From assembly GCA_903831455.1 (NCBI GenBank), contig CAIKXV010000246.1:1-41267 (forward strand): a DNA stretch of 41,267 nt, in the 5' to 3' direction. Positions 10,134-32,200 of the stretch are shown in pieces; within the stretch, counting starts at the first letter, position 1; each line of letters opens with the position of its first letter. The notes under the pieces were generated by a model, which saw nothing but the letters and a program-made list of their open reading frames with translations, was not told the DNA's origin and did not search any database. The position numbers were made by a program, and so were the translations under genes. The DNA comes from an uncultured Pseudomonadota bacterium (lineage in GTDB: Bacteria > Pseudomonadota > Gammaproteobacteria > Burkholderiales > CAIKXV01).

Positions 10134-11678
10134 ATGATCGAACTGCTCGACCGCCCCGCCTCAGGCCCCGCGATCCGCCTGCATGCCGACGACAACGTGC
10201 TCATCGCGCGCACCGTGATCGAACTGGGCGCGAAGTTGCCCGACGGCGTCGTGAGCCGCAGCCAGGTGCCCGCCGGCCACAAGATCGCCGCCCGCGCGAT
10301 CGCGCGCGACGAACCGATCCGCAAGTACAACGTGACCATCGGCTTTGCCAGCACCGATATCCCGGCCGGCACCTACGTGCACTCGCACAACATGGAGTTC
10401 CGCGAGTTCCAGCGCGACTACGCGCACGCCCAGGACTACCGGCCGGTACAGATGGTCCCCGAGGCCGAGCGCGCCAGCTTCATGGGCATCGTTCGTGCCA
10501 ACGGCCAGGTCGCCACGCGCAACTACATCGGCGTGCTCTCCACGGTGAACTGTTCGGCCACGGTCGTGCACAAGGTCGCCGAGTACTTCACCCCGGAGCG
10601 GCTGGCCGAGTATCCGAACGTCGACGGCGTGGTGGCCTTCGCCCACGGCACCGGTTGCGGCATGGAACTCACCGGCGAGCCGATGGACCTGCTCCGCCGC
10701 ACAATGGCCGGCTATGCCACCCACGCCAACCTCGCCGGCGCGCTCATCATCGGCCTGGGCTGCGAACGCAACCAGGTCAGCAAGCTGCTGGCCGCGCAAG
10801 GGCTGGCCGAGGGCTCGCGGCTTCGCAGCTTCGTGATGCAGGACGAAGGCGGCACGACCAAGACGGTCGCCGCCGGTATCGCCGCGGTGAAGGAGATGCT
10901 GCCCGAGGCCAATCGCGTGACCCGCACCCGCGTGCCCGCCAGCCACATCACGGTCGGCCTGCAGTGCGGCGGCTCGGACGGGTTCTCCTCGATCACCGCC
11001 AATCCGGCGCTGGGCGCCGCCGTGGACCTGCTGGTTCGCCACGGCGGCACGGCCATCCTCTCGGAGACTCCCGAGATCTACGGCGTCGAGCACACGCTGA
11101 CCCGCCGCGCGCGCTCGCGCGAAGTGGGCGAGAAGCTCATCGAGCGCATCCGCTGGTGGAAGGAGGAGTACACCGTCGGACGCGACACCCAGATCAACGG
11201 CGTGGTGAGCCCTGGCAACCAGAGCGGCGGACTCGCCAACATCTTCGAGAAGTCGCTCGGCTCGTCGATGAAGGGCGGCACCGGGCCCCTGATGGAGGTC
11301 TACCGGTATGCCGAGCCGGTGACGCAGAAGGGCTTCGTCTTCATGGATACCCCGGGCTTCGATCCGGTCTCCGCCACCGGCCAGATCGCGGGCGGAGCCA
11401 ACCTGATCGCCTTCACCACCGGGCGCGGCTCGATGTTCGGCGCCAAGCCTTCGCCGTCGATCAAGCTCGCCACCAACACCCCGATGTACAACCGCCTCAC
11501 CGAGGACATGGACATCAACTGCGGCGGCATCCTCGATGGCACCCACACCCTCGCGCAGATGGGGCAGGAGATCTTCGACCACTTCCTGCGCGTGGCCTCG
11601 GGCGAGAGGACCCGCAGCGAGCTGCTGGGCCTGGGCGACCACGAGTTCATCCCGTGGAACATCGGCGTCACCGGCTGA
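10134..11678 (+). CDS. UxaA/GarD-family sugar-acid dehydratase (altronate/galactarate dehydratase-like)
   Basis: This 514-residue cytoplasmic enzyme has a small N-terminal SAF-type domain (about residues 14-90, starting RLHADDNVLIA) followed by the UxaA catalytic domain. Recognisable segments include STVNCSATVVHKVAEYF (136-152), the cysteine motif AHGTGCGM (170-177), GLGCERNQ and QCGGSDGFSSITANPALG. The family dehydrates altronate or galactarate using iron or another metal. The full-length fusion, rather than split subunits, resembles GarD and UxaA. The ATG has GAGGA 5 bases upstream. The next gene is a Bug receptor, suggesting that the imported acid is the substrate. The exact sugar acid is unknown. 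Confidence 0.83.
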   Translation: MIELLDRPASGPAIRLHADDNVLIARTVIELGAKLPDGVVSRSQVPAGHKIAARAIARDEPIRKYNVTIGFASTDIPAGTYVHSHNMEFREFQRDYAHAQDYRPVQMVPEAERASFMGIVRANGQVATRNYIGVLSTVNCSATVVHKVAEYFTPERLAEYPNVDGVVAFAHGTGCGMELTGEPMDLLRRTMAGYATHANLAGALIIGLGCERNQVSKLLAAQGLAEGSRLRSFVMQDEGGTTKTVAAGIAAVKEMLPEANRVTRTRVPASHITVGLQCGGSDGFSSITANPALGAAVDLLVRHGGTAILSETPEIYGVEHTLTRRARSREVGEKLIERIRWWKEEYTVGRDTQINGVVSPGNQSGGLANIFEKSLGSSMKGGTGPLMEVYRYAEPVTQKGFVFMDTPGFDPVSATGQIAGGANLIAFTTGRGSMFGAKPSPSIKLATNTPMYNRLTEDMDINCGGILDGTHTLAQMGQEIFDHFLRVASGERTRSELLGLGDHEFIPWNIGVTG

Positions 11679-11835
11679 GCGGGCACGCCCGTGCCAGCGG
11701 GCGCATTGCCCGTCGGCGCGGGTTGCTGATAAGCTGAAACGACAATAACAACACCCTGCCGTGGCGACGCTGGCCCCCGCGCGAGCGTCCGACCGCGAAG
11801 TCAGGGGTTTCCCGCATATCCCGGAGGATCGCGCG

Positions 11836-12822
11836 ATGCGCATCGTTGCCGCCCTGTCGCCGCTGCTGGTCGCAGCCTTGTCGTTCCTGACCGTCCTGCC
11901 GCCCCTCGCACAGGCCCAGGGTCCCGCATTCCCGGTCCGGCCGCTGCGCCTGGTCTTGCCCTTCCCGCCGGGCGGCCCGACCGACATGCTCGGCCGGGCG
12001 CTGGCCGCGCGACTGGGCGAGCAGTTCGGCCAGCCCGTCACCGTCGACAATCGTCCTGGTGCCGGCGGCAACCTCGGGCTCGAACTCACCTCGAAGGCGC
12101 CCGCGGACGGCTACACGATGGTGCTGTCCTCGCCGCTGATCTCGATCAGCCCTTCGCTCTACTCGAAGCTCAACTACGACCCGTTCAAGGATCTCGCCCC
12201 GGTATCGCTGGTCGCGGTCATCCAGAACATCCTCGTCGTGCACCCGTCGGTACCCGCGCGCACGCTGCCCGAACTCATCAAGTACGCGCGGGCTAACCCG
12301 GGCAAGCTCAACTACAGCTCCGGGGGCGTAGGCACCACCGGCCATCTCGCCGCCGAACTGCTCAACAGCCTGATGAAGATCCGCACCGTGCACGTGCCCT
12401 ACAAGGGCTCCGCGCAGGCGATGGTCGGCCTCATCTCCGGCGAGACCGACATGCTGATCATGGCCGCACCGGTGGCCGGCCCGCACGTGAAGGCCGGCAA
12501 GCTGCGCGGCATCGCCACGCTCTCGGAGCGGCGGGCGCCCGCAGCCCCCGGCGTGCCCACCGCGCAGGAGAGCGGCATCCAGGGCTTCGAGGTGCCGATC
12601 TGGTACGGCGTGCTCGCGCCCACCGGCGTGCCGCGCGAGATCATCGCCCGCCTGAATGCCGAGATCGTGAAGGCCATGGCCTCGCCCGACATGCGCGACA
12701 AGCTGTCCTCGGCCGGCATCGAGCCGCAGACGATGTCGCCCGAGCAGTTCGGGGAGTTCATCCGCAGCGAAGCCGTCCGCTACGGCCGCGTGATCCGCGA
12801 GGCGGGCATCAAGGGCGAGTGA
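11836..12822 (+). CDS. Bug-family (TctC-type) periplasmic solute receptor 1
   Basis: This 328-residue secreted binding protein has a signal peptide ending near residue 27 (LPPLAQA-QG). The Bug fold begins AFPVRPLRLVLPFPPGGPTD, with the ligand-region Asp50, followed by VDNRPGAGG, ADGYT and VPYKGSAQAMVGLISGE. Bug proteins bind carboxylated compounds in the periplasm, some for tripartite tricarboxylate transporters, others with no known membrane partner. ATG 11836 is chosen over 11761 because GGAGGA (11823-11828) lies 7 bases upstream and the signal peptide then starts properly. It lies between the UxaA-type dehydratase and a lyase of the PEP-mutase family, which suggests a hydroxy- or sugar-acid ligand. 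No TctA/TctB genes are present. Confidence 0.87.
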   Translation: MRIVAALSPLLVAALSFLTVLPPLAQAQGPAFPVRPLRLVLPFPPGGPTDMLGRALAARLGEQFGQPVTVDNRPGAGGNLGLELTSKAPADGYTMVLSSPLISISPSLYSKLNYDPFKDLAPVSLVAVIQNILVVHPSVPARTLPELIKYARANPGKLNYSSGGVGTTGHLAAELLNSLMKIRTVHVPYKGSAQAMVGLISGETDMLIMAAPVAGPHVKAGKLRGIATLSERRAPAAPGVPTAQESGIQGFEVPIWYGVLAPTGVPREIIARLNAEIVKAMASPDMRDKLSSAGIEPQTMSPEQFGEFIRSEAVRYGRVIREAGIKGE

Positions 12823-18469: not shown

Positions 18470-20215
18470 TCAGGTCCGCGGGATCCTGCCGCGGACCGGC
18501 GGACGCATGAAGGCGAAGTCGCCCCCGTGCTCGGCCTGCTCGACCTGCTCGACGTAGAGCCGGCGATAACCCCGCTGGTCCTCGGGTCGTGGCGGCGGCG
18601 GCTGCCAGGCGGCGCGACGTGCGGCGAGCTCCTCGTCGCTCACCAGCAGGTCCAGTCGCCGACCCGCCGTGTCGAGGCGGATGCGATCGCCGGTGCGCAC
18701 CAGCGCAAGGGGTCCCCCGATCGCGGACTCCGGGGAGACGTGCAGCACCACGGTGCCGAAGGCGGTGCCGCTCATGCGTGCGTCGGAGATGCGCACCATG
18801 TCGCGCACGCCCTTGAGCGCGAGCTTCTTCGGGATCGGCAGGTAGCCCGACTCGGGCATCCCGGGCACGCCGCGCAGTCCTGCGTTCTGGAGCACCAGGA
18901 TGTCCTCGGCCGCGACATCGAGATCGGGGTCGTCGATACGCTCGGCCAGGTCGGCCAGCGAGGAGAACACCACCGCGCGCCCCTCGTGCTGCAGCAGGGA
19001 CTGCGAGGCTGCGCACTGCTTGACCACGGCCCCGCCCGGCGCGAGATTGCCGCGGAGGATCGCCATCGCGCCTCCGGCATACACCGGATCGCCGAACGGC
19101 CGCACGACCGTCTGGTCCCAGTCGGGGGCGGCTGCGTCCAGGTTCTCGCCCAGCGTGCGGCCGGTGACGGTCAGCGCATCGAGCGCGAGCATCGGCTTCA
19201 ACTGCCGCAGGATGGTGGTCGCCCCGCCGGCGCGGTAGAGGTCCTCCATGTAGCCCTTTCCGGTGGGCTTGAGGTCGACGAGCACCGGCGTGCGTCGACC
19301 CATCTCGTCGAAACGTTCGAGGTCGACCTCGTAGCCCAGGCGGGCCGCGATCGCGGTGAGGTGGATCAGCGCGTTGGTGGACCCGCCGATGGCCAGCAGC
19401 ATGGTCAGCGCGTTCTCAAGCGCCGCCGGCGTCATCACGCGATCCGGGGTCAGCCCCTCGGCCGCCAGCGCGACCGCGCGCGCACCGGTGGCCTCGGCAT
19501 GACGGATGCGGTCGGCCATCACCGCGGGAATCGCCGCGCCGCCGGGCAGCATCATGCCCATCGCCTCCGCGCAGCAGGCCATCGTGCTGGCGGTGCCCAT
19601 CACCATGCAGGTGCCGGCCGTCGGGCACAGCTTCTCCTCGATCTCGCCGATCTCGCGATCGTCGATCTCGCCTCCGCGGTACCGGCCCCAGAAGCGCCGG
19701 CAGTCGGTGCAGGCGCCAAGCCGCTCGCCCTTGTGGTCGCCGGTGATCATCGGTCCGGTCACCGTCAGCACCGCCGGCACGTTCGCGCTGGCCGCGCCCA
19801 TCAGCAGCGCCGGTACCGTCTTGTCGCAGCCGCCGATCAGCACCACCGCATCCATCGGCTGCGCGCGCACCATCTCCTCGGTGTCCATCGCCATCAGGTT
19901 GCGCAGGTACATGCTGGTCGGGTGCGCGAAGGACTCGTGCAGCGACACCACCGGGAACTGCACGGGCAGCCCACCGGCCATCAGCACCCCCCGCTTCACG
20001 CCCTCGATGATGTCGGGCACGTTGCGATGGCAGGCGTTGTAGCCCGAGAAGGTATCGGTGATGCCGATGATCGGACGGTCGAGCGCATCGTCCGAGTAGC
20101 CCATCGCCTTGATGAAGGCCTTGCGCAGGAACAGCGAGAAGCCCGCGTCGCCGTAGGCGGTGAGCCCGCGCTTCATGCCGGTGCCGGGGGGCATCGAATC
20201 CGGTTTGGCTGCCAT
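18470..20215 (-). CDS. IlvD/Edd-family dehydratase, probably a sugar-acid (arabinonate-type) dehydratase
   Basis: This 581-residue iron-sulfur dehydratase has three cluster-type cysteines, Cys62 (YNACHRN), Cys130 (GGCDKT, with Lys132 for the carbamylated Mg2+ ligand) and Cys203 (AGTCMVMGTAST). From memory these sit at a constant offset from the [2Fe-2S] ligands of L-arabinonate dehydratase. The CTDCRRFWGRYRGGEID segment also looks like the pentonate/hexonate branch rather than biosynthetic IlvD. It would convert an aldonic acid into a 2-keto-3-deoxy acid. ATG 20215 is preferred because GGAGA lies 8 bases upstream; longer in-frame starts only add low-complexity residues. It probably shares an operon with the nitroreductase and the ModA-like gene. 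Confidence 0.84.
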   Translation of the reverse strand: MAAKPDSMPPGTGMKRGLTAYGDAGFSLFLRKAFIKAMGYSDDALDRPIIGITDTFSGYNACHRNVPDIIEGVKRGVLMAGGLPVQFPVVSLHESFAHPTSMYLRNLMAMDTEEMVRAQPMDAVVLIGGCDKTVPALLMGAASANVPAVLTVTGPMITGDHKGERLGACTDCRRFWGRYRGGEIDDREIGEIEEKLCPTAGTCMVMGTASTMACCAEAMGMMLPGGAAIPAVMADRIRHAEATGARAVALAAEGLTPDRVMTPAALENALTMLLAIGGSTNALIHLTAIAARLGYEVDLERFDEMGRRTPVLVDLKPTGKGYMEDLYRAGGATTILRQLKPMLALDALTVTGRTLGENLDAAAPDWDQTVVRPFGDPVYAGGAMAILRGNLAPGGAVVKQCAASQSLLQHEGRAVVFSSLADLAERIDDPDLDVAAEDILVLQNAGLRGVPGMPESGYLPIPKKLALKGVRDMVRISDARMSGTAFGTVVLHVSPESAIGGPLALVRTGDRIRLDTAGRRLDLLVSDEELAARRAAWQPPPPRPEDQRGYRRLYVEQVEQAEHGGDFAFMRPPVRGRIPRT

Positions 20216-20321
20216 CGGGACTGTCTCCAGGAGGGTGGCCGCGCATCGGCGCGGGAGGGAAGCGTGCCGCGCGCGCCCGCAGGCGCCGGACGGCGGACGC
20301 CCGGGGGGAGCGTGCGCGCGG

Positions 20322-21179
20322 TCAGTCGAGCCGGAAGCCTCGCGCGCGGACGAAGGCACCGAAGTCCGCCCGATCGGGCACCGAATACTGCCGGGCCTTG
20401 TCCTCGCTCCAGCCGTAGAAGGCCGCGCGCCCCAGCCGCGACTCGGCGCGCTGGCGCACGTAGGGCTGGCGTTCGTCGCGCCAGCGATCGTACGCATCCA
20501 CGGCCTCGCGCAGGCCCTGCTCGCGATGCCGGTCGACGTGGACGGTGGTCGACAGCGGCAGCCGGGGCGTGATGCGGTTGCCGCGTGCGGGCCAGCCCAC
20601 CGCCATCGCAGCCACCGGGAACACGTGAGCGGGCAGTTCGAGGAAGTCGCTGACCTCGGCCGCGCGGTTGCGTACCGTGCTGAGTGGACAGCAGCCCAGC
20701 CCCGCCGCCTCGGCTGCGGCCACGAACGCCTGCATCGCGATCGCCGCGTCCACCGCGGCGTTGAAGAACCAGTCGAGGTGGTCGTTGGCGAATGCGTGCC
20801 CGCGCCACTCGTGCAGCAGTCGCTGGCGCCGCTGGTTGCCGCAGAACACCAGCAGGCCCGGCGCCTGCGCGATCCACGGATCGGGACCGATCAGCGCGGC
20901 GAGCGTGGCGCGGCGCTGCGGCTCGTCGACGATCACGATGTCCCGGCTCTGCATGTCGCTCTTGGTGGGCGCCGACAGCGCGATCGCGCAGAGCGTGCGC
21001 AGCGTCTCGAGCGGCAACGGCCGGTCCGTCCATGCGCGATGCGCGCAGTGGGAGGCCATCGCGAGGTGCGCAGGTACCGCCACCGAGGCATCGAGCCCCG
21101 CGCCGTCCTGGAAACGTGCCGCCAGCAACCCCGCCAGCCCGGTCGCGGCGGATCCGTCCCCGCCGTGCTGATCGCTCAT
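20322..21179 (-). CDS. Nitroreductase-family FMN protein (NfsA/FRP-like)
   Basis: This 285-residue flavoprotein has HRAWTDRPLPLETL (residues 47-60), the N-terminal FMN/phosphate-binding arginine region, then IALSAPTKSDMQSRDIVIVD. The middle AVDAAIAMQAFVAAAEAAGLGCCPLSTVRN is the dimer/FMN segment, and a long C-terminal tail holds YDRWRDERQPYVRQR. The family reduces nitro-aromatics, quinones or flavins with NAD(P)H. The first 40 residues are variable. ATG 21179 has a very strong GGAGGAAGG Shine-Dalgarno. It heads the minus-strand group that continues with the IlvD/Edd dehydratase (106-base gap) and is divergent from the sulfatase gene. The physiological substrate is unknown. Confidence 0.82.
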   Translation of the reverse strand: MSDQHGGDGSAATGLAGLLAARFQDGAGLDASVAVPAHLAMASHCAHRAWTDRPLPLETLRTLCAIALSAPTKSDMQSRDIVIVDEPQRRATLAALIGPDPWIAQAPGLLVFCGNQRRQRLLHEWRGHAFANDHLDWFFNAAVDAAIAMQAFVAAAEAAGLGCCPLSTVRNRAAEVSDFLELPAHVFPVAAMAVGWPARGNRITPRLPLSTTVHVDRHREQGLREAVDAYDRWRDERQPYVRQRAESRLGRAAFYGWSEDKARQYSVPDRADFGAFVRARGFRLD

Positions 21180-22999: not shown

Positions 23000-23971
23000 A
23001 TGAACGCGCACCGCCCTGTCCTTCACGCCTGCACCTGCGCCCTGCTCTGCGCGCTCGCCTCGTCGGCGGCCGCGCAGGCGTGGCCGACCCGTCCGATCCG
23101 CTTCGTGATCAACTCCGCCCCCGGGGGCGCGCCCGATCTCATCGGCCGCGCCGTCGCGCAGCGGCTGGCCGAGGCGCTCGGCCAGCAGGTACTGGTGGAC
23201 AACCGGGCGGGGGCCAGCGGCGTGATCGCGACCGAACTCGTCGCGCGCGCCAGCCCCGACGGCTACACGGCGCTGCTGGCAGCAACGACCATCTTCGCGA
23301 TGCTGCCCGCGATGAAGTCCGGGCTACCCTACGACGTTGCGCGCGACTTCGCGCCGGTGATGCTGCTAGCCTCGGCCGCGAACGTGGTCGCGATCAACGC
23401 CGCGCTGCCCGTGAAATCGGTGCCGGAGCTGATCGCGCTCGCCCGCGGCCGGCCGCTGCTCTATGCGTCGGCGGGCAACGGCACGCCGGCGCACCTGGCC
23501 GGGGAGATGATCAATCTCGCCGCCGGGCTGAAGATGACCCATGTGCCGTACAAGGGTGCCGGACCGGCGCTCGCCGACGTGGTCGCCGGACAGGTCCACC
23601 TGATCGTCACCTCGCCGATCGCGGCCCTGCCGCACGCCCAGACCGGACGGGTGAGGCTGCTCGCCACCACCGGCCTGTCCCGCGACCCGCTGCTGCCCGA
23701 CCTGCCGCCGGTCGCGGCCACCCTGCCCGGCTACGAGATCACCCAGTGGTGGGGCATGGCGCTGCCCTCGCGCACGCCGCGACCGATCGTGATGAAGCTC
23801 AATGCCGTGCTGGGCGAGGCGCTGCGCCACCCCGAACTGCGGGAGCGCCTGGTCCAGCAGGGCACCGTACCCGGAGGCGGCTCACCCGAGGAGTTCGCCC
23901 GGTTCATCGCGACCGAGCGCGAACGACTGGGCCGGGTGATCCGGCAGGCGGGGATCAGCCTGGCGGACTGA
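23000..23971 (+). CDS. Bug-family (TctC-type) periplasmic solute receptor 2
   Basis: This 323-residue secreted receptor has a short basic start and a signal peptide ending about residue 25 (ASSAAA-QA). Bug motifs follow: WPTRPIRFVINSAPGGAPD with Asp46, VDNRAGASG, SPDGYT, VPYKGAGPALADVVAGQ. GGAGG lies 6 bases before the ATG, which rules against the longer 22940 start. It follows the sulfatase gene by 81 bases, suggesting that it delivers a sulfate ester or the organic part of one. Its last 17 bases overlap the 3' end of the convergent FAD-oxidase gene. No membrane partner is encoded nearby. Confidence 0.87.
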   Translation: MNAHRPVLHACTCALLCALASSAAAQAWPTRPIRFVINSAPGGAPDLIGRAVAQRLAEALGQQVLVDNRAGASGVIATELVARASPDGYTALLAATTIFAMLPAMKSGLPYDVARDFAPVMLLASAANVVAINAALPVKSVPELIALARGRPLLYASAGNGTPAHLAGEMINLAAGLKMTHVPYKGAGPALADVVAGQVHLIVTSPIAALPHAQTGRVRLLATTGLSRDPLLPDLPPVAATLPGYEITQWWGMALPSRTPRPIVMKLNAVLGEALRHPELRERLVQQGTVPGGGSPEEFARFIATERERLGRVIRQAGISLAD

Positions 23972-25391
23972 CCACCTTGCCGGGATTCATGATGCCGGCC
24001 GGATCGAGCGCCGCCTTCAGCCGCTGCATCACGTCGATCTCGACCGCGCCCTTGTAGTGCGGGAGTTCGTGCACCTTGGCCTGGCCGATGCCGTGCTCGG
24101 CGCTGATCGAGCCGTTGCGCGCGTGCACCAGCGCGTACACGACCTCGTTGACATCGGTGGCCGCGATCGCCTGCGGATCGTCGCGGCGCCGCCCGGGCAC
24201 GTAGCAGTTGTAGTGCAGGTTGCCGTCGCCGAGGTGGCCGAAGCACACGACCCGCGTGCCGGGCCAGCGCGCATCCAGCGCGCGCTCGGCCTCGTCGATG
24301 AATCCCGCGAGGTCGCCCGCCGGCAGCGAGATGTCGTGGCGATAGAGCAGGCCCTCGTTCTTGGAGGCGTCGGGAATCGACTCGCGCATCCGCCATAGTG
24401 CCTGGGCCTGCGCCTGGCTGCCGGGGATCGCCACGTCGCTGACCTCGCCCGCCTCGACCGCCTCGGACAGCGCCGCTTCCACCGCCTCGCGCAGCCCGGG
24501 ACCGGACTGGGTGTCGTCGAGCGCGGTGAGCACGTACCAGGGCGAGGCCTCGGTCAGCGGGTCCCGGGTACCGGGGATATGACGCAGCACGAGTTCGAGG
24601 CTGAAGCGCGAGACGAGTTCGAAGGCGCTCACCCGGCTGCCCACCGCCGACCGGAGCCGCGCGAGGAGATCGAGCGCGGCGGCGGGGGAGGGTACGGCCG
24701 CGAACGCGGTCAGCGACTCGCGCGGCTGCGGGAACAGCTTGAGCACCGCCCCGGTGATCACGCCCAGCGTGCCCTCGGCGCCGATGAACAGCTGCTTGAG
24801 GTCGTAGCCGGTGTTGTCCTTGCGCAGCGCCCGCAGGCCGCCCATCACCCGCCCGTCGGGCAGCACGACCTCCAGCCCCAGCACGAGGTCGCGGGTGTTG
24901 CCGTAGCGAAGCACGTTGATGCCGCCGGCATTCGTGGAGAGGTTGCCGCCGATCTGGCAACTGCCCTCGGCGCCCAGCGACAGGGGGAACAGCCGTCCCG
25001 CCTCGGCGGCTCGCTGCTGGATCACCGACAGCACGCATCCGGCCTCGACGGTGACCGTGTCGTTGAGCAGGTCGATGTCGAGCACGCGGTTCATGCGCGA
25101 GAGCGAGAGCACGATCGACCGGCCACCCGGTGCCGGCGTGGCGGCTCCGCACATCCCGGTGTTGCCCCCCTGCGGGACGATCGCAACCCCTGCCCGGGCG
25201 CAGGCCGCGACCACGGCGGACACCTGGTCGGTGCTGGCGGGCCGCACCACGGCGAGCGCGTCGCCCCGGAAGAAACCCCGCCAGTCGACCAGTGCGGGAG
25301 CGACGTCCTCGCTCGCCGTGGCGAGACCTGCCTCGCCCACGATGCCGCGCAGCGCATCGAGGAATCCGCCCACACCGCCATCCGCACCCAT
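23955..25391 (-). CDS. FAD-linked D-2-hydroxyacid dehydrogenase (GlcD/D-lactate dehydrogenase family)
   Basis: This 478-residue flavoprotein has a PCMH-type FAD domain (residues about 45-225) carrying PQGGNTGMCGAATP (73-86) and EGSCQIGGNLSTNAGG, and a C-terminal FAD-oxidase domain with FGHLGDGNLHYN and SAEHGIGQAK, the metal/FAD and substrate-site signatures. It oxidises a D-2-hydroxyacid such as D-lactate, glycolate or D-2-hydroxyglutarate and passes electrons to a quinone or flavoprotein. ATG 25391 is chosen because AGGAGG lies 7 bases upstream; the longer 25478 frame lacks this. It is the last gene of the G3E-amidohydrolase-SDR-Bug run and could oxidise a hydroxyacid released upstream. It overlaps the convergent Bug gene by 17 bases. 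Confidence 0.85.
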   Translation of the reverse strand: MGADGGVGGFLDALRGIVGEAGLATASEDVAPALVDWRGFFRGDALAVVRPASTDQVSAVVAACARAGVAIVPQGGNTGMCGAATPAPGGRSIVLSLSRMNRVLDIDLLNDTVTVEAGCVLSVIQQRAAEAGRLFPLSLGAEGSCQIGGNLSTNAGGINVLRYGNTRDLVLGLEVVLPDGRVMGGLRALRKDNTGYDLKQLFIGAEGTLGVITGAVLKLFPQPRESLTAFAAVPSPAAALDLLARLRSAVGSRVSAFELVSRFSLELVLRHIPGTRDPLTEASPWYVLTALDDTQSGPGLREAVEAALSEAVEAGEVSDVAIPGSQAQAQALWRMRESIPDASKNEGLLYRHDISLPAGDLAGFIDEAERALDARWPGTRVVCFGHLGDGNLHYNCYVPGRRRDDPQAIAATDVNEVVYALVHARNGSISAEHGIGQAKVHELPHYKGAVEIDVMQRLKAALDPAGIMNPGKVVSPPG

Positions 25392-25500
25392 GCTCGCCCT
25401 CCTGGCCAGGTCGGGCAGCGCCGTGCCGCGACCGTCGGACGCAATGATACCGTGCACCGCGACCCGAGCCGGACGCACCGGCGTGGCGTCCGCCCGGGCG

Positions 25501-26490
25501 TCAGTCAGCCGTGATGCCCGCGGCGCGGATCACCTTGCCGTAGCGGTCGATCTCCGACTGCACGAACACCCGGAAGGCCTGCGAACTGTCGCTGGTCACC
25601 GACAGTACGCCGCTCGCACTCAGGCGCTCGACCGAGTCGGCGTGGCGGGCCGCGGCCCGCGTGACGGTGAACAGGCGGTCGAGCACCGGCTGCGGGGTGC
25701 CCCGCGGCGCGAACATGCCCTGCCACGACCCGATGCGCATGTCGGCGAACCCGGACTCCGGCAGGGTGGGCGTATCGGCGACGGCAGCCACCCGCGACGC
25801 CGACACCACCCCCAGAAGGCGCAGCCTGCCCTGCTTGACGAAGGTGGTCGTCGAGGAGAGCGTCAGGAACGCCACGTGGGTCTCGCCCCCCAGCAGGGAG
25901 GCGACCGCCGGGCCCGCCCCTCCCTTGAACGGCACGTGGGTGAGCTGGGTGCCGGTGGCGCGCATGAACAGTTCCATCTCCAGCCGGTTGGCGCTGCCCG
26001 CGCCAGAGGAGGCGAAATTGAACTGGCCAGGGCGCGATCGCAGCAGGTCGACCAGTTCCTTCACGGTCTGGGCCGGCACCGATGGATGCACCACCAGCGA
26101 GCCTGGGACATCCACCACCTGGGTGATCGGCACGAGATCACGCAACGGCTGGTAGCGGAACTTCGGATACAGCGACGGGTTGATCGCCATCGTGCCCACG
26201 TTGCCCAGCAGCAGCGTGTGCCCGTCCGGCGATGCGCTGGCCGCGACCTCGACACCGATGTTGCCCGCTGCTCCCGAGCGGTTGTCGACCACCACCGACT
26301 GGCCGAGCTCGGCGGCCAGCCGCGGTTGCAGGATGCGTCCGACGAAATCGGATGCGCCCCCGGGCGCGAAGGGCACGACCACCCGTACCGGCCGCGTCGG
26401 GAACGACGCGGCGATCGCCAGCGTGGGCGCGGCCGCGAAGAGGAACAGTGCCGCCGTCACGCGGCGGGCGGCGATGGATTGGCGCTGCAT
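25501..26490 (-). CDS. Bug-family (TctC-type) periplasmic solute receptor 3
   Basis: This 329-residue secreted receptor has a signal peptide ending near residue 28 (APTLAIA-AS), then SFPTRPVRVVVPFAPGGASD with Asp48, VDNRSGAAG, SPDGHT and VPFKGGAGPAVASLLGGE. The last has Phe where the other five copies have Tyr. ATG 26490 is fixed by AGGAGGAG upstream. It lies between the SDR and FAD-oxidase genes of the minus-strand module, with gaps of about 106 and 109 bases, and probably captures that module's substrate. The ligand is unknown, and there is no TctAB partner. Confidence 0.87.
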   Translation of the reverse strand: MQRQSIAARRVTAALFLFAAAPTLAIAASFPTRPVRVVVPFAPGGASDFVGRILQPRLAAELGQSVVVDNRSGAAGNIGVEVAASASPDGHTLLLGNVGTMAINPSLYPKFRYQPLRDLVPITQVVDVPGSLVVHPSVPAQTVKELVDLLRSRPGQFNFASSGAGSANRLEMELFMRATGTQLTHVPFKGGAGPAVASLLGGETHVAFLTLSSTTTFVKQGRLRLLGVVSASRVAAVADTPTLPESGFADMRIGSWQGMFAPRGTPQPVLDRLFTVTRAAARHADSVERLSASGVLSVTSDSSQAFRVFVQSEIDRYGKVIRAAGITAD

Positions 26491-26596: not shown

Positions 26597-27352
26597 CTAC
26601 TGACCGCCGGTGCCGGTGACGCTCGTCCCTCCGCACACGAACAGCAACTGCCCGGTGATGAATCCGCTGCGCGGATCGAGCAGGAAGCCTGCCGCGTGCG
26701 CGACATCCTCTGGCGTGCCCACGCGCCCGAGCAGGATCCCGTCGATCACCTGCTGGCGCTGCGCGCTGCCCGGGGGATGCCCACGGTCGAACAGCGCCGA
26801 GCCGACCGGCCCGGGCGCGATCACGTTGACCGTGATGCCGTCGACGCCCGCCTCGATCGCCAGCGTGCGCGTGAAGCCGACCAGGCCGGCCTTGGCCGAG
26901 GAGTAGACCAGGCGGCCGGTCTTGCCCAGCAGCGCGCGCGAGGCGATGTTCACGATGCGCCCGTAGCGCGCCTCGCGCATGCCGGGCAGGAAGGCCTGCA
27001 CCAGCAGCATCGCCGCGGTGATGGTGATGCCCATCACGTGCGCGACGTCCTCGGCGGTGGCCTGCTCCACACGGTCCGGGCGGTTCGCCCCGGCATTGTT
27101 GACGAGGTAGCGCACCGCATGGCGCGAGGCCACCTGCGCGGCTGCCTCGCGCGTGGCTTCGACATCGGCGAGGTCGACCTCCACGTGCGACAGGTGCGGG
27201 TGGCGTATCGCGGGCGCCCGGCGCTGCAGCGCGATCACCGGGTGCCCGCGGTCGAGCATCACCCGGGCGATCGCCTCGCCGATCCCGGCGCTGGCACCGG
27301 TCACGACCGCGGCCTCCTCGGCCGCGATCCGGTCCCCGCCCGCCTGCGTCAC
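26597..27352 (-). CDS. Short-chain dehydrogenase/reductase, classical type
   Basis: This 251-residue NAD(P)-dependent oxidoreductase has TGASAGIG (residues 18-25), NNAG (85-88), catalytic Ser138 (NIAS) and YSSAK with Tyr150 and Lys154, then VNVIAPGPV. These are all the classical features missing from the SDR at 16553. The start is GTG, 16 bases after the amidohydrolase stop; GGCGAGG overlaps the start, so the signal is weak and translation is probably coupled. FabG-like 3-oxoacyl or hydroxyacid/alcohol dehydrogenase activities are possible. In context it may oxidise or reduce the product of the amidohydrolase. Confidence 0.82.
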   Translation of the reverse strand: MTQAGGDRIAAEEAAVVTGASAGIGEAIARVMLDRGHPVIALQRRAPAIRHPHLSHVEVDLADVEATREAAAQVASRHAVRYLVNNAGANRPDRVEQATAEDVAHVMGITITAAMLLVQAFLPGMREARYGRIVNIASRALLGKTGRLVYSSAKAGLVGFTRTLAIEAGVDGITVNVIAPGPVGSALFDRGHPPGSAQRQQVIDGILLGRVGTPEDVAHAAGFLLDPRSGFITGQLLFVCGGTSVTGTGGQ

Positions 27353-27368: not shown

Positions 27369-28724
27369 TCACAGGTAGTCCATGATCTTCCAGGTGCCCG
27401 GCTCGGCGTTCACCACGTTGCGCGTGTGCCCGGGGCGACGGTCGGCATACACGCGGCCTTCCTTCATCACGAGCTGGATGTTGGGCTTGCTCTGCAGGCA
27501 GCGGATGTCGGCCAGCGGGTCGCCGTTCACGGCCACGATGTCGGCGAGCTTGCCCGCCTCCAGCGTGCCCAGGTCGCGGTCGAGCTTGAGCGCGCGCGCT
27601 GCGTTCCGGGTGCAGGTCTGCAGCGCATGCATGGGCTTCATGCCGAGGTTCACGTAGATCTCGAGCTCGCGGGCGTTGGTGCCCATTTCGGGATCGAAGC
27701 CCATGTCGGTACCCATCGCGATGTTCACGCCGGTGCCGTACATCTTCTGGAAGGTCTCGAAGCAGTTCTGCTGGATGCTCTTCATCTTGTTGATGACGAA
27801 CATCGAGGTGCCCTGCTGGCGACGCAACTCGATCGCGTGGTCGGTGCGGTGCGACAGCGTGGGCGTCACGTACACGCCCACGTCGCAGATCCGGTCGACC
27901 GTCGCATCGTCGTGGAACACCATGTGCTCGAGCGTGTCGGCACCGGCATCCATCGCCATGCGCTGGGCCGCGGGCGTGAAACAGTGCACCGCCGCGAGCT
28001 TGTGGAAGGCGTGCGCCTCGTCCACCACCGCGTCGAGCTCCTCCTGCGTCATGTTGCGGATGTCCGGCTCCTCCTTGTCGGTGCCGCCGCCACCCGACGC
28101 ACAGGTCTTGATGACGTCGCAGCCGGCCAGCAGGTTCGTGCGCGCGAGCTTGCGCAGCTCCCAGGGACCATCGGCCGACTGGAAGCCGACCCGAAGCGCC
28201 GCGCGCGGCTGGATCAGGTCGAGGTGCGAGCCGGTGATCGCGGTGAAGGCCGCCACCATCATGCGCGGCCCTTCCAGGATGCCGGCGTAGAACGCATCGC
28301 GGATCGCGCAGGCCTCGGCCACCAGCAGGCCGCGGCTGCCGGCAAGCCCCATGTCGCGCAGCGTGGTGAAGCCCATGTCGAAGCACAGCTGGGCATGGAA
28401 CACGCCGTACATCTGCTGCAGCTCCGGGGTGATCTCCCACTGCGCGACCCTGAAGTTGTGGAAGGTCAGGCAGTTGAACATCATCGTGTGGATGTGGCAG
28501 TCGATCATGCCGGGGATCAGCGTCGCCCCCCCGCAGTCGATCACCTCGGCGCCCGGCGGCACCGGCAGCGAGGCGCGAGTGCCGATGGCGTGGATGCGCC
28601 GGCCGCGCAACTCGATCACCGGGTCGACGATCGGGTCCGCGCCGGTGCAGTCGATCAGTTTCGCGCCGGTCACGTACACGGTCGGGCCGGTCTCCGCGGC
28701 CGGGGCCGCATGGCTGCTGCTCAT
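27369..28724 (-). CDS. Metal-dependent amidohydrolase (imidazolonepropionase/Xaa-Pro dipeptidase-like)
   Basis: This 451-residue cytoplasmic hydrolase of the amidohydrolase superfamily has a beta-sandwich start (YVTGAKLIDCTGADP), GMIDCHIHT with metal histidines His77 and His79, a candidate carbamylated Lys206 (DVIKTCASGGGG), His247 (AVHCFT), His267 (EHMVFHD) and Asp340 (GTDMGFD). This complete set supports a binuclear-metal enzyme. DVIKTCASGGGGTD is typical of the group that hydrolyses cyclic amides or N-acyl/dipeptide-like substrates. ATG 28724 has GGAGGAGAG upstream and overlaps the stop of the G3E GTPase (ATGA), implying translational coupling with a putative metallochaperone. The SDR starts 16 bases after its stop. 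The exact substrate is unknown. Confidence 0.84.
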   Translation of the reverse strand: MSSSHAAPAAETGPTVYVTGAKLIDCTGADPIVDPVIELRGRRIHAIGTRASLPVPPGAEVIDCGGATLIPGMIDCHIHTMMFNCLTFHNFRVAQWEITPELQQMYGVFHAQLCFDMGFTTLRDMGLAGSRGLLVAEACAIRDAFYAGILEGPRMMVAAFTAITGSHLDLIQPRAALRVGFQSADGPWELRKLARTNLLAGCDVIKTCASGGGGTDKEEPDIRNMTQEELDAVVDEAHAFHKLAAVHCFTPAAQRMAMDAGADTLEHMVFHDDATVDRICDVGVYVTPTLSHRTDHAIELRRQQGTSMFVINKMKSIQQNCFETFQKMYGTGVNIAMGTDMGFDPEMGTNARELEIYVNLGMKPMHALQTCTRNAARALKLDRDLGTLEAGKLADIVAVNGDPLADIRCLQSKPNIQLVMKEGRVYADRRPGHTRNVVNAEPGTWKIMDYL

Positions 28725-29890
28725 CGGGTGCTCTCCTCCAGGGGCCGCGCGCTCGGGGCTGCGGCAGGGCGCCGGAACGTCTCCATGACGCGCCGGAAAT
28801 GCTCGTAGTTCGCGGGATCGAGGGTCATGTTGCGCCGCGCGCGACCCGCTTCGGTCCGGAAGGCCTCGAAGGTGCCCCGGATGTCGACCTCGTCCATGCC
28901 GCGCGCGATGATGACGATGCGGCTGCGGCGATCCTCGTCCGGCCACGCCTCGAGCTCGACCGGCTCGCTCAGCACGCGCTGTACCGCATGGATGGCGACC
29001 GGACGACCTTCGACGTTGACCAGCCCCTTCATCCTGAGCATGCCGGCCGCGCGCACCGAGGCGAACAGGTTCAGCCACAGCACCAGGCCCGGTTGCGTGA
29101 TCTCGCCCTCGTGCACCAGCGACAGCGTGCGGATCGGCCCGCGCTCGTCCGCCCCACCGGATTCGGCCATCCGGGCGAGATCGGCCAGGCGCTCGGACAC
29201 CCCGGCAGGCGCCCCGCTCGTCGCCGACCAGGCTGCAGGCGCCAGCACGCCGCCGGCCTCGGCGCGCCCGTAGGCCGCGGCCAGCACCCGCGCGGCCGGG
29301 TTGAGCACCCGCAGGCGCTCGCGGACCGCCTCGACCGCGGCGTCGCCCGCGAGGTCGGTCTTGCTGATCAGCAGCGTGTCGGCAACGGCCACCTGCTTGG
29401 CCGCCTCCGGATGCTCGTCGAGCTGCTCGAGGCCGCGCACGGCATCGAACACCGTCACCACCGATCGCAGTTCGAAGCGTCGCGAGACCGCCGCATCGGT
29501 GAGCAGCAACTGCACGATGGGTACCGGGTCGGCGAGGCCCGAGGTCTCGATCAGCACGCAGTCGAAGCCCGCGTCGGGGCTGTCGTGCCGGTGCTCGTCC
29601 AGGTCGAGCAGGCGCGCGGCGATCTCGTCCTGCACGTGGCCACAGATGCAGCCGCTGTCGACCAGGCGCACCCGCTTGCGCGGCGCGCTGACCAGCACGT
29701 GGTCGAGGCCGACCTCGCCGTACTCGCCGACGACCACGGCCGCCTGCGACAGCGCGGCATCGCGCAGCAACGCGTTGAGCAGCGTGGTCTTCCCGCTGCC
29801 GAGGAACCCGGTGACCACCCACACGGGCATGCGCGTCGGCGCCGTCCCGTCGAGTCGATCGTGCTGCATCGCCAGTCCGCCGCCTTCCAT
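28721..29890 (-). CDS. G3E-family (CobW/COG0523) GTPase, putative metallochaperone
   Basis: This 389-residue cytoplasmic GTPase has Walker A GFLGSGKTT (residues 28-36), GEYGEVGLDH (55-64), the nucleotide-sensing ETSGLADP (115-122) and SKTD (176-179) for the guanine base. A CobW C-terminal domain (MLRMKGLVNVEGRPVAIHAVQ and RIVIIARGMD) is present. The usual CxCC metal motif is here Cys81-Ile-Cys83-Gly84, so the last cysteine is absent. ATG 29890 is chosen because GGAGG lies 5 bases upstream; GTG 29896 and ATG 29869 are alternatives. It overlaps the amidohydrolase ATG by four bases. The family delivers zinc, cobalt or other metals to enzymes; the coupling suggests the amidohydrolase as client. 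That role is inferred. Confidence 0.84.
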   Translation of the reverse strand: MEGGGLAMQHDRLDGTAPTRMPVWVVTGFLGSGKTTLLNALLRDAALSQAAVVVGEYGEVGLDHVLVSAPRKRVRLVDSGCICGHVQDEIAARLLDLDEHRHDSPDAGFDCVLIETSGLADPVPIVQLLLTDAAVSRRFELRSVVTVFDAVRGLEQLDEHPEAAKQVAVADTLLISKTDLAGDAAVEAVRERLRVLNPAARVLAAAYGRAEAGGVLAPAAWSATSGAPAGVSERLADLARMAESGGADERGPIRTLSLVHEGEITQPGLVLWLNLFASVRAAGMLRMKGLVNVEGRPVAIHAVQRVLSEPVELEAWPDEDRRSRIVIIARGMDEVDIRGTFEAFRTEAGRARRNMTLDPANYEHFRRVMETFRRPAAAPSARPLEESTR

Positions 29891-30136: not shown

Positions 30137-31174
30137 ATGTCGCCGATACCGCCAGCACTGCCCGCCCCCGCTCGCCGCCCGGCTTCCGCCCGGCCGGGCC
30201 GGGCGATCCTGAACGCGGCGCGGGTTGCACCCGCCGTGCTCGCCGCGCTCGCGGCCGTCCTGCCGGGCCCGGTAGCGGCCCAGGCGTTTCCTTCGCGACC
30301 GGTGCGCATGATCGTCGGGTTCCCGCCCGGGGGCGCGACCGATCTGGTCGCGCGCATCCTGCAGCCCCGGCTCGCCGAATCGTTCGGGCAGCCGCTGGTC
30401 ATCGACAACCGCCCCGGGGCCAACGGCGTGATCTCGCTGGAGATCCTCTCGCGCAGCGACGCCGACGGCCACAGCGTGGCCATCGGCCACATCGGCAACC
30501 TCGTGATCAGCCCGGCGCTGCAGAAGGTGCCCTACGACCCGTACCGCAGCTTCGAGCCCATCGGAATGATGGTGTCGCTGCAGAACATCTTCATCGTGCA
30601 TCCTTCGGTCAAGGCGGGCTCGCTGCGCGACCTGGCCGCGCTGGCGCAGGCGAAGCCGGGCGCCCTCAACTACGCCACCTCGGGCGTGGGCAGTCCCGGC
30701 CACCTCGCCACCGTGCTGCTCGAATCGATGGCACGCATCGAGATGACGCACGTGCCCTACAAGGGCGGCGGACCGGCGCTCACCGATCTGGTCGCCGGCC
30801 ACGTGCCGGTGTTCACGGCGGTGATCTCCACCGCGGTGCCCATGGTGCAGGCCGGCAAGGCGCGCGCGCTCGCGGTCACGGGCACGCGTCGCGCCGCCGC
30901 CCTGCCGGACGTGCCCACGGTGGCCGAGGCCGGATACCCGGGCTACGCGGCGACCAACTGGTACGGACTGCTGGCACCCGCCGGCACCCCCCGCGCAGCC
31001 ATCGGCCGCTTCAACCGCGACCTGACGGCCGCCCTCGAGGCCCCGGAAGTCCGCCAGCAGTTGCGCGACCGCGGCATCGATGCCACGCCCGGAGGCCCGG
31101 CGGACTTCACCCGCTTCGTGCGCGAGGAAGAGAAGCGCTGGGGCCCGATCGTGCGCAAGGGCGGTTTCAACTGA
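30137..31174 (+). CDS. Bug-family (TctC-type) periplasmic solute receptor 4
   Basis: This 345-residue receptor has an unusually long n-region (about 28 Pro/Ala/Arg-rich residues) before the hydrophobic core of the signal peptide, which ends near residue 48 (PGPVAA-QA). Bug motifs follow: FPSRPVRMIVGFPPGGATD with Asp69, IDNRPGANG, DADGHS, VPYKGGGPALTDLVAGH. ATG 30137 has GAGG 6 bases upstream; no closer in-frame start fits. It stands alone, divergent from the G3E-GTPase operon (246-base gap) and converging on the amidase-Bug pair. Ligand and membrane partner are unknown. Confidence 0.86.
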   Translation: MSPIPPALPAPARRPASARPGRAILNAARVAPAVLAALAAVLPGPVAAQAFPSRPVRMIVGFPPGGATDLVARILQPRLAESFGQPLVIDNRPGANGVISLEILSRSDADGHSVAIGHIGNLVISPALQKVPYDPYRSFEPIGMMVSLQNIFIVHPSVKAGSLRDLAALAQAKPGALNYATSGVGSPGHLATVLLESMARIEMTHVPYKGGGPALTDLVAGHVPVFTAVISTAVPMVQAGKARALAVTGTRRAAALPDVPTVAEAGYPGYAATNWYGLLAPAGTPRAAIGRFNRDLTAALEAPEVRQQLRDRGIDATPGGPADFTRFVREEEKRWGPIVRKGGFN

Positions 31175-31204: not shown

Positions 31205-32200
31205 TCACTCCGGCGTGATTCCGGCCTGGCGTACCACCTTCGCCCACAGCGCCACCTCGGTGCGGAGCAACTGGGCGAATCGCTCCGGCGGACCGGGAGC
31301 GGGTTCGGCGCCCTCCCCGGCCAGCCGGTCGCGAGTCTCGGGCGCGGCCAACGCTGCGGCCAGTTCCGCGTTCAGCCGCGTCACCGCAGCCACCGGCGTG
31401 CCGGAGGGGGCGAGCAGGCCGAACCAGGCATTCACCTCGTAGGCCGGAAGCCCCGACTCGCGCAGGGTGGGGACCGCGGGCGCGGCCGCGGCCCGACTCG
31501 CGCCACCGACGGCGATCGCGCGCAGCTTGCCCGACTTGATGAACGGCAACGCCGCCGTGAGGTTGGAGAACATGGTGTCGGCATGTCCCCCGACCACGTC
31601 GGCCAGGGCCGGACCGCTGCCCTTGTAGGGCACGTGCAGCAGGTCCACCTTCGCCTGCGCGCGCAGCAGTTCACCGGCCAGATGCGTGGCGTTGCCGGTG
31701 CCCGCCGATGCGTAGGTGAGTTGCCCGGGCCGCGCACGCGCGAGCGCGATCAGCGATTTCAGGTCGCGCGCGGGCACCGAGGGGTTGGCCACCAGCACGT
31801 ACTGCCCGGTGGTGGCGAGTCCGATCGGGACGAAATCCTTCAGGATGTCGTAGGACAGCCGCGTGTAGAGGCTGGGGTTGATCGTGTGCGCGGGCGTGCC
31901 CATGAACAGCGTGTAGCCGTCGGCCGGCGCCCGCGCGGCCACTTCGGCGCCGAGATTGCCGCCAGCGCCCGCCCGATTGTCGACCACGACAGGCTGCGCA
32001 AGCTGCACGGCCATGCGCTGCGCGAGGATGCGCGCCACGATGTCCACGCCGCTCCCGGGCGAGGAGGCGGCGATCAGGCGCAGGGGCTTGGCCGGGAACG
32101 ACTGGGCCTTCGCCGAGGACACCGCGATGCCTGCCACCACGGCCGCGAGCACGCAGGCGACCGGCGCCGCATGCCGCGGCGATCGCGACCGGCCCGTCAT
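31205..32200 (-). CDS. Bug-family (TctC-type) periplasmic solute receptor 5, coupled to the amidase
   Basis: This 331-residue secreted receptor has a signal peptide ending about residue 32 (IAVSSAKA-QS), then SFPAKPLRLIAASSPGSGVD with Asp53. The usual PPGG is replaced here by SPGSG. VDNRAGAGG, APADGYT and VPYKGSGPALADVVGGH follow. Its ATG overlaps the stop of the upstream amidase gene (ATGA at 32197-32200), so the two are translationally coupled and the receptor probably collects the amidase's amide or ester substrate. The altered PPGG loop next to the ligand pocket suggests a different ligand geometry. No TctAB genes are nearby. Confidence 0.87.
   Translation of the reverse strand: MTGRSRSPRHAAPVACVLAAVVAGIAVSSAKAQSFPAKPLRLIAASSPGSGVDIVARILAQRMAVQLAQPVVVDNRAGAGGNLGAEVAARAPADGYTLFMGTPAHTINPSLYTRLSYDILKDFVPIGLATTGQYVLVANPSVPARDLKSLIALARARPGQLTYASAGTGNATHLAGELLRAQAKVDLLHVPYKGSGPALADVVGGHADTMFSNLTAALPFIKSGKLRAIAVGGASRAAAAPAVPTLRESGLPAYEVNAWFGLLAPSGTPVAAVTRLNAELAAALAAPETRDRLAGEGAEPAPGPPERFAQLLRTEVALWAKVVRQAGITPE

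Follow-up and report, generated by a model that had tools for sequence, protein, structure and literature searches.

A COG0523-type GTPase linked to a COG1228-type amidohydrolase: a probable metallochaperone and client pair

Most COG0523 GTPases have no known client, and a 2022 review describes gene-cluster analysis as a route to predicting such clients (PMC9164220). In the 41,267-nucleotide stretch of DNA analyzed here (the window), a gene for a GTPase of this kind runs directly into a gene for an amidohydrolase with a predicted binuclear metal site, which raises the question of whether the hydrolase is the client of the GTPase, which would then act as a dedicated metallochaperone or metal insertase. 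We consider that this is probably the case, and the pair would then supply both a concrete candidate client and a candidate docking element.

The gene pair and its products

The source genome consists of 4.1 Mb in 306 contigs and contains five cobW-family matches, including the GTPase of the window. The features of the locus are as follows.

28721..29890, minus strand: G3E/COG0523-type GTPase, 389 aa; GTPase motifs intact; the metal motif reads CxCG-H instead of CxCC; Y-x-x-F helix at the C-terminus
29636..29650, minus strand: codons of C75-I-C-G-H79, the GTPase metal motif that departs from CxCC
28772..28816, minus strand: C-terminal helix specific to the GTPase subfamily, residues 353-367, including Y356-x-x-F359
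28721..28724, minus strand: ATGA overlap between the GTPase stop and the amidohydrolase start, read from the sequence
27369..28724, minus strand: COG1228-type amidohydrolase, 451 aa; complete predicted set of binuclear metal ligands
26597..27352, minus strand: short-chain dehydrogenase (SDR), 16 bases downstream of the hydrolase; homologues in 21 loci
25501..26490, minus strand: Bug/TctC-type solute receptor, next in the same-strand run; start placed by eye
23955..25478, minus strand: FAD-linked oxidase (Pfam), after the receptor in the same-strand run

Residues of the GTPase are numbered with residue 1 at the codon 29870-29872. Both gene starts are plausible, since ribosome-binding sites stand upstream of them: GGAGG lies just 5' of the GTPase start (29890) and GGAGGAG 5' of the hydrolase ATG. 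The window as a whole has multiple Bug/TctC receptor genes (11764-12822, 25501-26490, 30137-31174 and about 31205-32200), and sugar-acid dehydratase genes are also present (GD_AH, 10134-11678; ILVD/EDD, 18470-20497).

The original prediction held that the two genes share ATGA, and the sequence bears this out, with the GTPase TGA at 28721-28723 and the amidohydrolase ATG at 28722-28724. To call the overlap direct evidence of matched expression was too strong. Among about 70 co-directional rows, an ATG overlap was found in the window, in L008/L023 (one genome), L030, L062 and L064, and the intergenic distance in most other co-directional GTPase-hydrolase pairs is 20-180 bases. A second four-base overlap occurs in the window itself, where the genes for a TctC receptor and a PEP-mutase-family protein meet (12819-12822). 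Because the overlap is uncommon in relatives and present at another gene pair of the window, it is weak evidence: real, yet ordinary.

The GTPase contains the domains that mark a COG0523 protein, cobW (PF02492, 143.4 bits) and CobW_C (PF07683, 60.4 bits), and it is nested among COG0523 proteins in the tree. Its GTPase motifs are GFLGSGKT, the Walker B E109-x-x-G112 and SKTD, and their key residues are invariant in 38 aligned rows. The hydrolase matches Amidohydro_1 (PF01979, 140.4 bits), the domain that marks the COG1228/Amidohydro_1 proteins. The full metal ligand set claimed for it was confirmed by alignment with Cc2672 (PDB 3mtw), in which the residues corresponding to His77, His79, Lys206, His247, His267 and Asp340 are identical. 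These six ligands are invariant across 45 relatives except for a Leu in place of His79, the second His of HxH, in one. This Leu was seen in a single genome (L008:1501-2856, on a contig shared with L023), and a sequencing error is possible. The predicted hydrolase fold superimposes on 3mtw with a TM-score of 0.82 by query and 0.91 by target.

Neither protein reaches any named NCBIfam equivalog. The GTPase scored 113.8 against a cut-off of 332.1 for CobW (TIGR02475) and 88.3 against 600 for the zinc metallochaperone ZigA (NF038288), and the hydrolase scored 286.7 bits against 500 for Xaa-Pro dipeptidase (NF051886). Inferring a substrate from neighboring genes was tried and dropped; the gene contexts differ between loci (Bug/TctC receptors, SDR, pgk-pyk-fba, ABC transporter, CoA-transferase), and for this reason no substrate is named.

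Linkage and co-occurrence of the two genes

Of 300 genomes sampled from the order, 13 contain close relatives of the hydrolase. In a search with the window GTPase, the matches fell into two sets separated by a gap between at least 264 bits and at most 235 bits, and the upper set was located in the same 13 genomes; these counts come from related genomes and are not independent samples. In a profile search, 16 matches extended through the C-terminal tail, and all of them came from those 13 genomes; two more ended short of the tail and came from genomes that lack the hydrolase. In the window's genus, both proteins are present in five of 11 genomes and neither in the other six. Since presence and absence of the two proteins covary within three genera (g1, g6 and g82), the match does not reflect shared ancestry only. 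No further close homologue was found in a phylum-wide search of 398 sampled genomes. A correlation of protein distances (r 0.62) was set aside as proof, being confounded by shared descent.

A scan of genome contigs yielded 80 loci, with labels that include Burkholderiales, Polynucleobacter, Rubrivivax, Candidimonas, Rhodospirillales, Afifella and a Pelagibacteraceae bacterium. Five metagenome bins (L024, L032, L038, L046 and L061) are labelled Bordetella parapertussis, and this label looks doubtful. Of the 71 loci with a hydrolase of at least 62% identity, the GTPase is nearby in 64, four are truncated by a contig end on the upstream side and none is nearby in three, so that the GTPase accompanies the hydrolase in 64 of the 67 relatives with enough flank. 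The three loci without it (L071, L077 and L088) belong to genomes with a subfamily GTPase at another place, which in G301 and G302 is the end of a contig.

The order of the two genes is mostly head-to-tail. It is divergent in L015, L016, L017, L019, L076, L078, L079 and L082, and the GTPase is downstream of the hydrolase in L095 and L101. Because the pair persists in all these orders, the linkage outlives rearrangement. About 1 to 4.6 kb separate the genes in L034, L039, L046, L051 and L073. In L038 (2414-5000) a full GTPase is followed by a second, C-terminal GTPase fragment before the hydrolase, as if partly duplicated. A nearby GTPase is less regular in the group with 56-59% hydrolase identity, where none was seen in the fetched flank of L092, L093, L094 (whose flank ends at the contig end), L097, L098 and L102; in L097 a subfamily GTPase is located 5.3 kb off on the same contig. 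At L180 (5067-15863) a subfamily GTPase stands 5.3 kb from a hydrolase paralog (57%), and CoA-transferase, HMG-CoA lyase and MmgE/PrpD-like genes were recognized by eye alongside. The subfamily GTPase of L179 lies in a cluster that does not have this hydrolase close by.

The linked GTPases also belong together by descent. A quick tree search over 113 COG0523 proteins, made without bootstrap and with several long branches in the result, places 68 of the 69 linked GTPases in a single clade (SH-aLRT 93). The only extra member of this clade, from L116, adjoins a 49% paralog of the hydrolase. L100 was excluded as a pair, as its nearby GTPase falls outside the clade. Members of the clade carry a [YF]-x-x-F tail past the CobW_C domain (38 of 38 aligned members, compared with 0 of 43 non-member COG0523 proteins, duplicate copies of members among the comparison rows being counted as members), and AlphaFold predicts residues 353-367 of this tail as a confident helix. 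In a control set of COG0523 loci, this hydrolase occurred within 1.5 kb only beside subfamily members, with one weak 40-residue match as the exception.

Lack of conservation in relatives had been named in advance as an outcome that would refute the pairing. What we found is two identical sets of 13 in 300 genomes, a single clade and a linkage that holds through changes in gene order. Conserved linkage independent of orientation, together with co-occurrence, is the pattern expected of a dedicated pair. The joint retention and loss of the two genes across many bacteria suggests that the GTPase may load metal into the hydrolase, which is the likely client because it is the constant linked metalloenzyme. 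Counted against this reading were the absence of a nearby GTPase from L071, L077 and L088, the L179 cluster, the relatedness of the genomes compared, and the third Cys of CxCC that is missing in the GTPase of the window.

The metal motif and competing explanations

The CxCC motif has been described as present in all COG0523 members (PMC2770081, PMC7895991). The GTPase of the window has C-I-C-G-H at this position. The original identification as a G3E GTPase stands, although the missing CxCC had gone unremarked; the protein is COG0523 by descent and fold, and non-canonical because it lacks this motif. Among the aligned subfamily members, 29 of 38 have CxCC and nine of 38 have CxCG, and CxCC is also present in outsiders where the pattern was read. 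CxCG occurs in 11 of 11 sequences of the window's clade (SH-aLRT 100), where the next residue is His, or Glu in L027 and L028, and there is mostly another His two residues further on. The four closest GTPases have GEYG in place of the usual NEFG. The dN/dS values among the GTPases of the clade are 0.09-0.38, which argues against decay. Columns 26 and 138 of the hydrolase alignment separate the CxCG clade from the remainder, and this may be plain descent.

These substitutions could mean that the role of the GTPase has changed in the window's clade, where it would work without metal, helping the hydrolase to fold or controlling its quality in a GTP-dependent manner. Three Cys ligands have been inferred for cobalt-bound CobW (PMC7895991), and the replacement of CxCC by CxC-G-[HE] throughout the clade, with GEYG in the four closest proteins, fits such a change. 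However, both C75 and C77 are retained, as are the GTPase motifs, the adjacent His and the one usually found two residues on could serve as ligands, and purifying selection persists, so we regard a metal-free role as decidedly unlikely. A different possibility is that the true client is another metalloenzyme encoded in the same catabolic cluster, the GTPase and the hydrolase being linked only as members of one pathway. Transport and catabolic genes surround many of the pairs, and CoA-transferase, acyl-CoA dehydrogenase or MmgE/PrpD-like genes flank the subfamily GTPase in L179 and L180. Of 81 loci, 52 have Bug/TctC receptors; the corresponding counts for pgk, pyk, fba and SDR genes are 21-35. 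No neighbor is as constant as the GTPase, which is present in nearly all loci with room for it, and among the products shared by the loci only the hydrolase is a plain metalloenzyme; another client is therefore unlikely. The pgk, pyk and fba-like genes stand near the pair in about 27-35 loci (many of L032-L096) and form a conserved glycolysis neighborhood.

Two explanations would leave the hydrolase out altogether. A large COG0523 subgroup is tied to zinc limitation (PMC2770081), and a general zinc-stress protein might be located here by happenstance. This is very improbable for a distinct clade with strict co-occurrence with one hydrolase; moreover, the GTPase scores below the NCBIfam cut-offs of all named COG0523 models matched. 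A crude pattern for one Zur-like palindrome found no match in the window. That the two genes are linked by chance or hitch-hiking and are functionally unrelated could be argued from the relatedness of many of the genomes and from the fact that four-base overlaps are common. Given the survey, in which presence and absence match inside one genus and linkage survives changes of order, it is unlikely, and we assign it very little weight.

A dedicated metallochaperone and its client therefore remains our preferred explanation. By analogy with CobW, the nitrile hydratase activator and ZNG1, the GTPase most likely delivers or inserts metal, with metal binding, GTP hydrolysis and docking predicted from the family. 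With GTP and a divalent metal bound at its CxC switch region, the GTPase would attach to the freshly synthesized amidohydrolase, for which the subfamily-specific C-terminal [YF]-x-x-F helix is a possible docking element. GTP hydrolysis would then allow the GTPase to load or check the binuclear metal site of the hydrolase. More tentatively, the subfamily as a whole may have one amidohydrolase client, and the window's clade may have rebuilt CxCC as CxC-G-H-x-H, with a change in the metal selected or in the chemistry of its delivery, the client and the private docking helix being retained; this is a possible account and not the favored one. The natural contrast between CxCC and CxCG could be used to test the influence of the metal site on which metal is chosen. 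Members of the pair are available in isolates, namely Polynucleobacter sp. UK-Mo-2m-Kol15 (L057) and Afifella pfennigii DSM 17143 (L095), the latter with a more distant hydrolase (59%).

Comparison with known systems

Haas 2009 distinguished 15 COG0523 subgroups, with the neighborhoods detailed in a figure and the supplement, and the subfamily may already be drawn there or in Edmonds 2021. No COG0523-amidohydrolase pair was found described in the open-licence papers searched. With this reservation about the two sources, our best reading is that the subfamily appears undescribed in the open literature.

The nearest solved relatives of the hydrolase are Cc2672 (3mtw) and the COG1228 prolidases, at about 31% identity or less. 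Cc2672, the Sgx9260-type prolidases, ochratoxinase and ADH3, all of COG1228, have the fold and the six metal ligands in common with the window hydrolase. We know of no partner GTPase for any of these four. Some relatives of the hydrolase have been produced in active form in other hosts with no partner GTPase, which speaks against a dedicated chaperone.

For the GTPase, the best solved match is E. coli YjiA (PDB 1nij, 4ixm), a COG0523 protein with the same two-domain architecture and GTPase motifs at an identity of about 25%. YjiA has CxCC and Glu37 where the window GTPase has CxCG and Val, and it ends where the window GTPase continues into the tail helix. CobW has the same COG0523 fold, and as a chaperone it has a defined target, cobalt for vitamin B12; it is inferred to use three Cys (PMC7895991), whereas the window GTPase has CxCG. 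The clients of the nitrile hydratase activator (Nha3) and of ZNG1 are other enzymes, and the window GTPase is not placed in either subfamily, but Nha3 and ZNG1-METAP1 represent COG0523 proteins with one named client each (PMC2770081, PMC13339975).
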